Positions 12,883 through 20,185 of a DNA stretch of 64,000 nt are shown piece after piece; positions within the stretch are counted from its first letter, which is position 1; the number at the start of each line of letters is the position of its first letter. Position numbers and translations under genes: made by a program. The notes beneath the pieces were generated by a model that worked only from the letters and a program-made list of their open reading frames with translations, was not told where the DNA came from and did no database searches. Origin of the DNA: Thermoplasmata archaeon (GTDB lineage Archaea; Thermoplasmatota; Thermoplasmata; Lutacidiplasmatales; UBA184); NCBI GenBank assembly GCA_030038095.1, contig JASHPK010000060.1, positions 1 through 64,000 of the forward strand, given 5' to 3'.

Positions 12883-13590
12883 CTATCCGATCATCAACCC
12901 TTCGATGCGGACCTGGAATCCTCGGGAAGTCCGGGTGAGGAAGTTGATGAGCCCGCTGTGGCGCCACTGCAGCATACACCGGCGAGGCAGGAACCAATAG
13001 CGGGCTCCGATGCGCAGGTCGGACCTCGCCTCGGTGACCAGCCCTTCATACGCCTGGGCCGAGTAGTAGCCCATGTCCTTGAACCCGTCCGTCCGGGCCC
13101 GGAGCGGGCCGGTGACGCACCAGACGATGACCCCGGTCCGGGGGTCGACCGACATGACCACGCCGCAGTGCGTGATCGGACAGCCGCAGGACATGCCGAG
13201 CGGTCGGCCAATGAGCACATCCCCCTTCTGGATGCCCAGCTCCCGCGTGAGCAACGGGTTGTGCGGAAGGATCGTCTCCCGAGGGCCCGGCTCTTCGGGG
13301 AACGTCTGCAGGACAAAGTCGTAGTCTCGGCCGAGGTGATCCTTCCAGCCTCGGGGCTCGACCGCGATCGCGAACGCACAGCTGTCGCACGGTCCCGTGC
13401 CGGTCGACGACGGAGCGGTCGCAGGAGTCACCGGTGTCGCCGGACCCCTCTGGATGCACCGGTCCAGCAGCTTCGGCTCGGCCACGGCGGCCTCGGCGAG
13501 TTCGTCGCAGGTCCGGAACCCGCACAGTCCGCAGTCCAGTCCCGGCAGTTCGGCTCGGAGGCGTTGCGCCTCCGCTCCGGGGGCCGCCAT
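12883..13590 (-). CDS. Cys-rich Fe-S-domain protein of unknown function
   Basis: N-terminal LDCGLCGFRTCDELAEAAVAEPKLLDRC (4Fe-4S-like) plus CDSCAFA and GMSCGCPITHCGVV; last gene of four-gene operon. Confidence 0.75.
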   Translation of the reverse strand: MAAPGAEAQRLRAELPGLDCGLCGFRTCDELAEAAVAEPKLLDRCIQRGPATPVTPATAPSSTGTGPCDSCAFAIAVEPRGWKDHLGRDYDFVLQTFPEEPGPRETILPHNPLLTRELGIQKGDVLIGRPLGMSCGCPITHCGVVMSVDPRTGVIVWCVTGPLRARTDGFKDMGYYSAQAYEGLVTEARSDLRIGARYWFLPRRCMLQWRHSGLINFLTRTSRGFQVRIEGLMIG

Positions 13591-13591
13591 C

Positions 13592-14782
13592 TCAAGCGCC
13601 CCCCGCCGCCATCGGCTCGAGTTTGACGGAAGAGATGGACCGCAGAGAACCGACGGCCGACCGGAGCTCCTCGAGGAAGTAATCGATCTCCGCCTCGGTG
13701 TTGAACCGTCCGAGGGTGACCCGGAGGGCCCCTCGGGCTTGGACCGGGTCCCGTCCGATGGCCAACAGCACGTGGGACGGCTGATCGCCCTGGTGGGACG
13801 AACACGCCGAACCGGTGGCGACCGCAATTCCTCGTTCGTCGAGACGGAGCAGCAACGTGATCGCTTCTCCCTCGAGTCCGAAGAACCCGACGTTCGCGTT
13901 CGTAGGAAGACGCTGGCGCCGGTGGCCGTTCAGATAGGCTCCCCAGGACGAGCTGAGGACCGTATCGAGGATCCTGTCGCGGAGCCGAGTGAGTCGGGGA
14001 ATCTCCCGGGACCGCTCGGCCTCGCACAGTTCGGCCGCCTCGGCGAACCCCACGATCCCCGGCACGTTCTCGGTGGACGAACGGAGACCGAACTCGTGGC
14101 CTCCTCCGTGCTGCCAAGGGTCGATGCGAACGGAACTGCGGACGTACAGCGCCCCGACGCCCTTCGGTCCGTAGATCTTGTGGGAGTTGAGGGTCACGAG
14201 GCCGAACCCATCCTTCTGCACGTCGATCGGAAGCTTGCCGAACGTCTGGCACGCATCGGTGTGGAACGGTACATTGCGTTCCGCGCAGATCCTCGCCAGC
14301 TCGCGTACGGGCTCGACCGTGCCGATCTCGTGGTTGGCGTGCATGACCGAGACCAGGATCGTGTCGTCCCGAAGGGCGGCGGCCAGGTCGGCGGGCCGCA
14401 CGAGGCCCTCCGAGTCCACGTTGAGGTACGTCACCGAGAACCCTTGCCCCTCGAGCCAGGCCGCGGAGTTGAGGATGCAGTCGTGCTCGATCCGCGTCGT
14501 GATGATGTGGCGGCCCTGACGGCGGTTGGCGAACGCGACCCCCTTCAGGGCCAGATTGTTGGACTCCGTTCCCCCAGAGGTGAAGATGACCTCCTCGGGG
14601 CGGCGCGCTCCGATCAGCGAAGCGATCTTCGCCCGCGCGCTCTCGATCGCCTCGCGCGCTTTTCGACCGGGGGAGTGCAGACTCGAGGCGTTCGCGAACG
14701 TTTCGTGGTAGTACGGCTGTATCGCCTCGAGAACGCGAGGGTCGACCGGGGTGGAAGCGGCGTTGTCGAGATAGACGTTCAT
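13592..14782 (-). CDS. Cysteine desulfurase (NifS/IscS family)
   Basis: YLDNAASTPVDP, FTSGGTESNNLALKG, TLNSHKIYGPKG, ATGSACSSHQ. Confidence 0.93.
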   Translation of the reverse strand: MNVYLDNAASTPVDPRVLEAIQPYYHETFANASSLHSPGRKAREAIESARAKIASLIGARRPEEVIFTSGGTESNNLALKGVAFANRRQGRHIITTRIEHDCILNSAAWLEGQGFSVTYLNVDSEGLVRPADLAAALRDDTILVSVMHANHEIGTVEPVRELARICAERNVPFHTDACQTFGKLPIDVQKDGFGLVTLNSHKIYGPKGVGALYVRSSVRIDPWQHGGGHEFGLRSSTENVPGIVGFAEAAELCEAERSREIPRLTRLRDRILDTVLSSSWGAYLNGHRRQRLPTNANVGFFGLEGEAITLLLRLDERGIAVATGSACSSHQGDQPSHVLLAIGRDPVQARGALRVTLGRFNTEAEIDYFLEELRSAVGSLRSISSVKLEPMAAGGA

Positions 14783-14785
14783 CGT

Positions 14786-15484
14786 TCACTCCCCCCGGTA
14801 GAACAGTTCTCCGTCGAGCTGCCGGACGACCCCGAAGTGCTGCTGCCAGCCGATCTCCTTCTTCCCCACGCAGATCGTGCATACCCCGACCGGAGGATTC
14901 CCTCGGAGCAAGAGCCGGGCCGAAAGGTCCGGCCCCTGCTCCATCCGCCGCACGAGCCGGTCGATGTTGATGCCGTGAAGAGCGTCGGTCTCGATCACCG
15001 ACGCCTTGGTCGCCGACATGACGTTCGCCCGGAACACCTCCCGCTCGGCCTGAGAGACGAGGTCGATCTTCGTCACGACCGCCACGTCAGCGAGGGAGAG
15101 GAGCGGTCCCATCTTCCTCGGGAGGTTCATCCCGCTCGTGGCCTCGATCACGGCGACTCCGAGCGAATCTTCGATGTACGGCGAGCAACGCAGGCAGAGA
15201 CCGGCGGTCTCGACCAGGAGCGTATCCGCCCGTTCCTGGGCCGCCCATCGCACGGCGTCGCCGAGCACCATGACGTTGCAGTGGTCCGGGCAGAGCTCCC
15301 CGGAGTAGACCTTTCGGGCGGGAATCTCGAACCGAGAACGGAACTCCTCTTCCTCGTTCGTGAACTGGACGTCCGTCTTGAGGTAGGCGAGCCGGTGGCC
15401 GCTCGCCATCAGGCGGCGGGCGACCTGCTTCAGCACCGTGGTCTTGCCGCTGGTCGGGGGACCCGCGCAGATGATGGCCTTCAT
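14786..15484 (-). CDS. G3E/HypB-CobW-like GTPase
   Basis: Walker A GPPTSGKTT, VVTKIDLV, CxxxC/CxxC motifs (LCPDHC, LCLRC, VCTIC). Confidence 0.85.
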   Translation of the reverse strand: MKAIICAGPPTSGKTTVLKQVARRLMASGHRLAYLKTDVQFTNEEEEFRSRFEIPARKVYSGELCPDHCNVMVLGDAVRWAAQERADTLLVETAGLCLRCSPYIEDSLGVAVIEATSGMNLPRKMGPLLSLADVAVVTKIDLVSQAEREVFRANVMSATKASVIETDALHGINIDRLVRRMEQGPDLSARLLLRGNPPVGVCTICVGKKEIGWQQHFGVVRQLDGELFYRGE

Positions 15485-16296
15485 CGGCCCCCTCCATCGG
15501 CCAGGAGGACGCTCGTGAGCCGCTCTCCCAGCACCGTGTCATCCAGCGGCTCACCGGCCCGGATCTTCGCGCGGTACTCGAGGATGATGTCGTCGAGCCG
15601 ACTCAGGGCGTCCGCGACCCTCCGCTCCCGCGCGTCCTTCGGGATCAGCTTCTGCATCGCGCCGTTGCGCATCACGACCCGAACGTCCGAGAGCAGCGCG
15701 ATTCGGGGATCGTGGGTGACGAACACGAAGATCTTCCGATGCCGTCGCAGCAGGTCGAGCGCCCGCGTGCGATGGATGCCCGCGTTCTCGATCTCGTCGA
15801 GGAGAATGATCGGGGAGTTCCCGATCACCACGGCGTCCGCGATCAGGAGCGCGCGCGTCTGGCCCCCCGAGAGCTCGGTCATCGCGCTCTCCATATCGAT
15901 GGCCTCCCCCGTGAGCTCGTTCGCGAACTCGACGGTCTGCCTCACGAGCGACGCCACGTCCGCCCCCCGGCGGATCTCGGAGTGGATACGCAGGAACTCG
16001 CGAACCGGCAGGTCCGAGAGGAAGTTCGTGTGCTGGGTGATGAGCGCCACCGGGTTGCGGCTCGGGTCCCCGATGGACTCCTCGGGGACCGGGGAGCCGT
16101 TCACCAGCACCCGCCGACCGGAGGGGGTGTTCGAGTTCGCGAATCGCTCGATATCGTTGATGAATTCGGTCTTCCCCGAACCCGTGGGACCCACGATGCT
16201 CGCGACCTCGCCCATCCGGAGGTCGACCCGCGCCACGGGTTCGTCCTGTCCCTGTCGGCCCCGCCCTCCAAGAATCGACAGCGTTTCGATTTCCAT
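15481..16296 (-). CDS. Soluble ABC-type ATPase
   Basis: Walker A GPTGSGKTE, signature LSGGQTRALLIAD, Walker B IILLDEIENAG; no TM partner in operon; likely ATG at 16296. Confidence 0.88.
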   Translation of the reverse strand: MEIETLSILGGRGRQGQDEPVARVDLRMGEVASIVGPTGSGKTEFINDIERFANSNTPSGRRVLVNGSPVPEESIGDPSRNPVALITQHTNFLSDLPVREFLRIHSEIRRGADVASLVRQTVEFANELTGEAIDMESAMTELSGGQTRALLIADAVVIGNSPIILLDEIENAGIHRTRALDLLRRHRKIFVFVTHDPRIALLSDVRVVMRNGAMQKLIPKDARERRVADALSRLDDIILEYRAKIRAGEPLDDTVLGERLTSVLLADGGGR

Positions 16297-16330
16297 GGTC
16301 AACCCGAGGTGGGACGGCGCACGGCGCGGT

Positions 16331-18609: not shown

Positions 18610-19329
18610 GTGTACGCCCGGACGAACGAGGCGCCGGTGCTCCTCCTCGGAGCGGCCCACGTGGTCGATCTCGCGGGACCGCTGCGGGAGGTCCTCGAGG
18701 GCCGACCGCTCGATGGGGTCGCCGTGGAGCTCGACGCCGAGCGCGCCGCGGCCCTCTTCGCCCCCGACGGGGCCCGGCCCCGACCCGCGGGAGCTCCGCT
18801 GTTCGCCCGGCTCTGGGCGACGATCCAGCGTCGCCTGGGGGCCGAGATCGGAGGCGGGGTTCCCGGTGAGGAGATGAAGGTCGCCGCCGCGGTCGCGAGG
18901 GAGCGGGCGCTCCCGGTCTTCCTCATCGACGACCCGATCCGGACGACCCTCGTCCAGCTCGTCCGCACGCTGCCGTTCAAGGAGCGGGTCCTCCTCCTCG
19001 CGAGCGCGGTCGTCGGACTCTTCCTGCCCTCCCGAGTAGTGGCGAAGGAGATGGACCGCTACTCCGAGTCGCCCGAGGCGTACACGGAGGAGCTCCGGAC
19101 GGCGAGCCCGACCCTCGCGCGGGTGCTGCTGGACGACCGGAACGAGCACATGGCCGCCCGCCTCGCCGAGTTGCGGGGACGCGGGTACGGCCGGATCGCC
19201 GTGGTCGTGGGCGATGCCCACGTCCCGGGGCTCGCTTCCGCGTTGCGCCGCCGGGGCGTGCCGGTCGAATCGATCTCGTTCCGGGAGCTGCGGGCGGCGG
19301 CTACAGCACCGTCCCCTCGCCCTCCGTGA
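18610..19329 (+). CDS. TraB/PrgY-like family protein
   Basis: LLLGAAHVVD, VAVELDAERAAAL, LLDDRNEHMAARLAEL, VVVGDAHVPGL. Confidence 0.82.
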   Translation: MYARTNEAPVLLLGAAHVVDLAGPLREVLEGRPLDGVAVELDAERAAALFAPDGARPRPAGAPLFARLWATIQRRLGAEIGGGVPGEEMKVAAAVARERALPVFLIDDPIRTTLVQLVRTLPFKERVLLLASAVVGLFLPSRVVAKEMDRYSESPEAYTEELRTASPTLARVLLDDRNEHMAARLAELRGRGYGRIAVVVGDAHVPGLASALRRRGVPVESISFRELRAAATAPSPRPP

Positions 19330-20185
19330 TCTCACCGACCGCCCGAACGAACGCGTCGGTGAGGGCGGAGACCTCGGGGGACGTGAGCTCCTCGAGGCGT
19401 CCGGAGTCCGAGAGCTCGGAGACGTTCGACGCGGCGGCGAGGTGACCGAGGACCGGCAGACCGTACTGCGCGGCGACCCGATCCACGCGGCTCGGGCCGA
19501 AGAGCTCGATCCGCTCTCCGCAGTGCGGGCACCGGACGAAGGCCATGTTCTCCACCACCCCGAGCAGGGGCACGTGGAGGTCCCGGGCCATGTTCATCGC
19601 CTTCTTCACGATCAGCGCGGCCAGGTCCTGCGGCGTGAGCACGAAGACCATCCCGTCGATCGGGATCGTTTGGAAGACCGTGAGCGGCACGTCGCTCGTC
19701 CCGGGAGGCATGTCGATCAGGAGGTAGTCGAGCGAGCCCCAGTGGACGCTGCCGAAGAACTGGGTGATGAGCCGCGTCACGAGGGGTCCGCGCCAGATCA
19801 CGGGCGTCTGCTCGTCCTCGACCATGAACTGCGAGGAGACCACGGCGAGGCCCGTGCGGGAGGTGGCCGGCTCGATCCCTTCCCCGCGGTCGAGGAGGGG
19901 GCCGGTGAGCCCCAGCATCTTCGGGATGGACGGGCCGGTGATGTCGGCGTCCAGGATGCCGACCTTCGATCCCCGGCGCGCGAGCTCGGACGCCAAGAGG
20001 GCGGTCACCGACGACTTACCGACGCCGCCCTTGCCGCTCCCGACGGCGACGACCCGGCGGATCCCCCCCTTGTCCATCCGTTGGAGGACCCCGCGCGGTC
20101 CGGGGCGCGCCACGGGTGCCGACCCGCGCGCCGGTGGGGCCGGCGCGTTTTCGGTCGGGGCCTCCGCGGTCACACCGCGAACCAC
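19301..20185 (-). CDS. Mrp/NBP35-type P-loop ATPase (Fe-S carrier)
   Basis: VGSGKGGVGKSSVTALLA, DYLLIDMPPGTSDV, VENMAFVRCPHCGERI. Confidence 0.94.
   Translation of the reverse strand: MVRGVTAEAPTENAPAPPARGSAPVARPGPRGVLQRMDKGGIRRVVAVGSGKGGVGKSSVTALLASELARRGSKVGILDADITGPSIPKMLGLTGPLLDRGEGIEPATSRTGLAVVSSQFMVEDEQTPVIWRGPLVTRLITQFFGSVHWGSLDYLLIDMPPGTSDVPLTVFQTIPIDGMVFVLTPQDLAALIVKKAMNMARDLHVPLLGVVENMAFVRCPHCGERIELFGPSRVDRVAAQYGLPVLGHLAAASNVSELSDSGRLEELTSPEVSALTDAFVRAVGEITEGEGTVL

Follow-up and report, generated by a model that had tools for sequence, protein, structure and literature searches.

What does an archaeal operon do that brings together a stand-alone ABC ATPase, a HypB/UreG-like GTPase, a cysteine desulfurase and an Fe-S protein? 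The operon lies in a 64,000 nt stretch of DNA (hereafter the window; assembly GCA_030038095.1, contig JASHPK010000060.1, positions 1 to 64,000) from a Thermoplasmata archaeon (Table 1). Its gene order is conserved across many bacterial phyla, and its neighbours are frequently genes for cysteine, methionine or, in methanogens, coenzyme M (CoM). This makes the four-gene unit probably an overlooked machine that handles sulfur or builds a metal-sulfur centre.

Table 1 Features of the operon in the window
Feature	Coordinates	Strand	Matches, motifs and position
TATA-like promoter element, TATAA	16334..16338	-	about 40 nt ahead of the ABC ATG
ABC ATPase, stand-alone	15481..16296	-	ABC_tran 5.6e-14 (Pfam); Walker A GPTGSGKT, LSGGQ, Walker B with DEIENAG, H-loop VTHD
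HypB/UreG-like G3E GTPase	14786..15484	-	cobW 1.6e-13 (Pfam); G4 motif TKxD; invariant C65, C97, C100, C202, C205 and H68
NifS-type cysteine desulfurase, accessory gene	13592..14782	-	Aminotran_5 1.8e-80 (Pfam); SACSS active-site loop, NSHK PLP lysine
COG2000-type Fe-S protein	12883..13590	-	FeS PF04060 8.1e-10 (Pfam); N-terminal [4Fe-4S] domain and C-terminal beta domain

A compact operon with a three-gene core

A preliminary description had reported four consecutive, tightly spaced minus-strand genes behind a single TATA-like element, with neither a permease nor a SufB/SufD scaffold among them. All of this was borne out when the open reading frames were re-read. The ABC and GTPase genes overlap by 4 nt (ATGA), 3 nt separate the GTPase and NifS genes and 1 nt the NifS and Fe-S genes; one TATAA precedes the unit; and open reading frames and Pfam matches reveal no permease, SufB/D or IscU within the window's four-gene unit. 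An in-frame TTG at 16302 could also serve as the start of the ABC gene; homologues begin at ATG. The TATA stretch is kept in one genus mate (L035, CGTATATG) and is not evident in another (L036). The G+C content of the operon is 66.7% against 70.4% for the window overall, and its third-position G+C is 0.84-0.88 against 0.90-0.96 in four nearby genes. On the same strand, 3 kb from the operon, positions 19301-20185 encode what by eye is an Mrp/NBP35-like P-loop ATPase, a putative Fe-S carrier.

An alignment of the GTPase scanned against GTDB contigs gave at least 575 genomic relatives, and the best 80 of these loci were analysed. They come from about 18 phyla, including Pseudomonadota, Omnitrophota, Bacteroidota, Acidobacteriota, Chloroflexota and Planctomycetota, and 79 are bacterial. 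The order ABC-GTPase-(NifS)-FeS is preserved across these 80: ABC adjoins the GTPase in every one, the Fe-S gene is visible in 74 (the remainder mostly lie near a contig edge), and no membrane gene separates the core genes. Two genus mates of the window genome have their genes arranged likewise and, together with the many bacterial examples, this argues that the arrangement is not due to chance. Rare co-occurrence, which would have spoken against the preliminary description, is clearly not what the survey found. NifS lies between the GTPase and Fe-S genes in 36 of the 79 bacterial loci; thus the core is three genes, ABC-GTPase-FeS, and NifS is an accessory. Cultured carriers include Rhodoblastus sphagnicola and Thioalkalivibrio denitrificans, the latter with the form of three genes. 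The four genes are conserved as one unit, as had been supposed, but the desulfurase is not an obligatory member of it.

Within the window's genus, for which 37 genomes were available, several of them incomplete, 3 have the Fe-S protein; in the phylum it is found in few of 390 genomes. A tree of the three core proteins, built by a quick method without bootstrap, places the window and the two genus mates inside a mainly bacterial group that holds NifS-bearing operons, apart from the methanogen versions. This position and the patchy presence within the genus suggest that the window copy is of bacterial type and was acquired horizontally from bacteria. A search of plasmid and phage collections returned one distant Fusobacterium record and no phage. 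One incomplete genome has two Fe-S gene copies, 83% and 79% identical to that of the window (G015:C246 and G015:C122; L003, L008). An open reading frame in another locus (L033:9485-9931) fuses a CysK-like N-terminus to the end of an ABC ATPase and is possibly an assembly chimera.

Conserved residues and known relatives

In an alignment of 83 Fe-S proteins, C20, C23, C28 and C45 are invariant, as are R129, C137, H141, C205 and H211. The N-terminal domain matches the structures of the CFeSP large subunit and RnfB, with which it has PF04060 in common, and these structures lead us to expect the first four cysteines to be the [4Fe-4S] ligands. C137, H141, C205 and H211 would form a putative second metal site (Cys2His2). 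The C-terminal domain is unrelated to CFeSP or RnfB by sequence or fold search. Pfam gave no significant match to any of the 83 C-terminal domains, nor to the C-terminal two thirds of the window protein. The domain is confidently predicted to be a beta-rich fold (pLDDT 94), for which a fold search of the PDB found no real match (best E 0.026 for the whole protein, 0.059 for the C-terminal domain). We call the protein COG2000-type by correspondence with the methanogen protein of PMC12068725 rather than by a COG search.

The GTPase is closest to the nickel GTPases HypB and UreG, likewise G3E proteins with metal-binding Cys and His residues. It differs from HypB in falling far under the cut-off of the HypB model TIGR00073 (46 bits against 121.2), in its Cys motifs and in belonging to a unit without a hydrogenase or urease gene. 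The motifs CPDH, CLRC and CTxC occur in all homologues and their five cysteines are invariant throughout; HypB and UreG form a single metal site with fewer. NifS scores 464.6 bits against TIGR03402, below the cut-off of 530.75, and possesses the active-site motifs of cysteine desulfurases. Most ABC proteins have SALD after the catalytic Glu; the ATPase encoded at 15481-16296 has ENAG, which is 99% conserved among its homologues.

Coenzyme M and sulfur assimilation neighbourhoods

An ATPase / Ni2+-binding GTPase / COG2000 Fe-S trio of unknown role was reported in 2025 next to the CoM genes of methanogens (PMC12068725, Fig. 2B legend), an association seen in six methanogen orders; in the literature searched, no other relevant paper mentions COG2000. 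The preliminary description took the operon as a candidate for an undescribed system. It has indeed no assigned name or role, but the trio had been noted in that study. We confirm the association in related archaea. Within one family of the class (f8), three genomes have MMP16, cysteate synthase, ComDE and a UPF0280-like protein after the trio. Curated models for the archaeal CoM genes, applied to L031 only, gave 490 bits for MMP16 (cut-off 364) and 570 for cysteate synthase (cut-off 325). G229 (L032) has the same CoM-locus genes rearranged, and a ComE-like gene was recognised by eye in G347 (L033). Methanogen-type loci have MMP16/ComF, cysteate synthase and ComDE within the cluster of the trio.

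The window unit shares the three core families, adjacent and homologous, with the methanogen trio. It and many bacterial versions differ in having NifS, in lacking CoM genes and, often, in lying amid genes of sulfur assimilation. The flanks of the window unit show no recognisable CoM biosynthesis gene. COG1900, the coenzyme M synthase family, is absent from G122, G185, the window genome and those genus mates that were searched; of the 58 bacterial operon genomes examined for it, only 4 have it. A role in CoM synthesis in the window organism was discarded on the absence of COG1900 there and in those genus mates.

Among the best 80 of at least 575 loci, 18 bacterial loci from about nine phyla have a sulfur assimilation gene within 9 kb and 21 have an Rrf2 regulator within that distance. 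The 9-kb count leaves out two further loci with CysK (L091, L102), whose GTPase escaped the simple gene caller. Curated models name O-acetylhomoserine sulfhydrylase, a sulfate-binding protein with CysT (L085), CysD, APS kinase, MetX, MetW and Xsc among the flanking proteins. Arrangements include (i) ABC-GTPase-FeS-cysC-cysD-cysN (L094); (ii) sulfate-binding protein-ABC-GTPase-FeS-cysT-...-cysA (L085); (iii) metY-cysK-metX-metW-(other genes)-rrf2-operon (L088, L099); (iv) operon-cysK (L120, L121); and (v) operon-...-aminotransferase-...-metY-cysK (L049). Nine loci have cysK and ten metY, against about one each expected among 715 flanking genes, the expectation being inferred from typical copy numbers. 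Sulfur genes are lacking from the vicinity of most loci, in particular those of the three-gene form in proteobacteria. The gene for a HydE-type radical SAM maturase sits between the NifS and Fe-S genes in L108 and L115, and beside the operon on the other strand in L125.

A motif search of 31 upstream stretches found the palindrome ACTAATCCnATnGGATTAGT ahead of rrf2 and of the ABC gene (log-likelihood 149, about 35 in shuffles). At 14 bits or more, 28 intergenic sites were found where 0.25 would be expected, although the majority belong to the training set; the held-out loci L091 and L096 also carry the palindrome. Extra sites precede metX-metW in L051 and a cysDN-containing cluster in L059. 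Operator-like sites ahead of cysK (L125) and a transporter gene (L120) proved to be artefacts of AT composition after background correction. What is new here is that the bacterial form stands beside genes for sulfate uptake and activation and for cysteine and methionine synthesis, and beside an Rrf2 regulator with a clear palindromic putative operator. We regard it as likely that the operon is associated with sulfur metabolism.

Candidate functions

We tentatively propose, at close to an even chance, that the unit encodes a machine dedicated to maturing a metal-sulfur (or Fe/Ni) centre on the COG2000-type protein, serving the supply of reduced sulfur for thiols. From the observed gene order, families, conserved residues, neighbourhoods and operator we infer its biochemical steps as follows. 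Nucleotide hydrolysis by the ABC ATPase and the HypB-like GTPase would allow the Fe-S protein to have the centre built or loaded on it, with C137/H141/C205/H211 next to the [4Fe-4S] domain as the most likely site. NifS, if present, would deliver sulfur from cysteine; operons without NifS would draw on sulfide or on a different desulfurase. The completed Fe-S protein would help to supply or reduce the sulfur from which bacteria make cysteine and methionine and methanogens make coenzyme M. The order in the best 80 loci, the sulfur flanks, the palindrome, the CoM clusters, the invariant Cys and His residues and the CFeSP/RnfB match support this model; it is weakened because most loci have no nearby sulfur gene and because the ABC and GTPase pair of Fusobacterium adjoins metal-uptake-like genes. 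The operon is a real, widespread system that may be placed with nucleotide-driven metallocentre maturation, its trio already noticed in methanogens. A metal-sulfur or metal insertion machine, rather than a transporter, had been suggested from the gene combination and the lack of permease and scaffold; that is consistent with our data, but the neighbourhood points to sulfur assimilation. Bacteria and archaea both conserve this gene set, which sits within core sulfur pathways and CoM synthesis and includes a domain that has no structural relatives; it exposes a clear gap in our picture of sulfur metabolism. Two questions are touched by it: how methanogens get sulfite and sulfur for coenzyme M, and how some anaerobes in which no sulfite reductase is recognised produce the sulfide that goes into cysteine.

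The Fe-S protein might itself be a siroheme-independent sulfite-sulfide oxidoreductase whose metal-sulfur site is new and whose maturation depends on the other genes, ATP and GTP. Diverse bacteria would use it to make the sulfide that goes into cysteine and methionine, and methanogens to convert sulfite and sulfide into each other for CoM. Its conserved Arg residues, the sulfate uptake and activation genes beside the operon and the still open source of sulfite for coenzyme M (PMC6286981) would all suit such an enzyme. A NIR_SIR domain of any kind occurs in 32 of 75 bacterial operon genomes (in some solely dsrAB-like or nirB-like) and is absent in 43. APS reductase exceeds 100 bits in 36, of which 15 lack NIR_SIR, including all 12 operon-bearing Bacteroidota with APS reductase. 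At class level this looked promising, since 18 of 26 other Bacteroidia with strong APS reductase have NIR_SIR against 0 of the 12 (Fisher test, about 5e-5, by hand). The contrast lost its meaning in an order-level control: among 217 genomes from the Bacteroidota order to which G448 belongs, 138 have APS reductase and only 15 NIR_SIR, although the operon is rare in Bacteroidia (1 of 276). Absence of NIR_SIR is thus a clade trait that does not single out the operon, and the missing sulfite reductase was dropped as proof of function. In addition, 21 of the 36 bacteria have both APS reductase and NIR_SIR, and a search of the window genome turned up no APS reductase and no sulfite reductase. With its statistical support gone, the idea is unlikely.

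That the unit is an ordinary Fe-S assembly operon is very unlikely. It shares a soluble ABC ATPase (SufC in SUF) and a cysteine desulfurase (SufS) with SUF, and joins them to an Fe-S protein. However, it holds no SufB/D or SufU, nor the IscU scaffold that stands beside the desulfurase in ISC; NifS is dispensable and of NifS/IscS rather than SufS type; and the SufC model is absent from the best NCBIfam matches of the ABC ATPase. The GTPase and COG2000-type protein are additions to the SUF set, and a HypB-like GTPase is not known as a component of SUF or ISC. An ABC transporter with its permease encoded elsewhere, as the ABC_tran domain might imply, is hardly credible, given constant soluble partners and no membrane gene inside the unit in the loci read.

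Maturation of the Fe-S protein for sulfur supply must also be weighed against a general nickel, iron or zinc metallochaperone for some other enzyme, with a secondary link to sulfur genes. The kinship of the GTPase to HypB and UreG and the HydE-type maturase at the operon in L108, L115 and L125 fit such a chaperone, but the sulfur-gene link recurs across phyla, methanogens show a CoM link, and no metalloenzyme is constant among the neighbours; we consider it rather unlikely. Its further support comes from Fusobacterium vincentii (L180:6823-9807), where the partner of the GTPase (37% identical) and ABC ATPase (43%) is an SBP_bac_6-DUF1858 protein instead of the Fe-S protein, adjoining ZnuA and NikL-like genes for what resembles Zn and Ni/Co uptake. 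This variant suggests that ABC and GTPase form a metal-handling core with exchangeable third partners, a pair that may serve metals generally.
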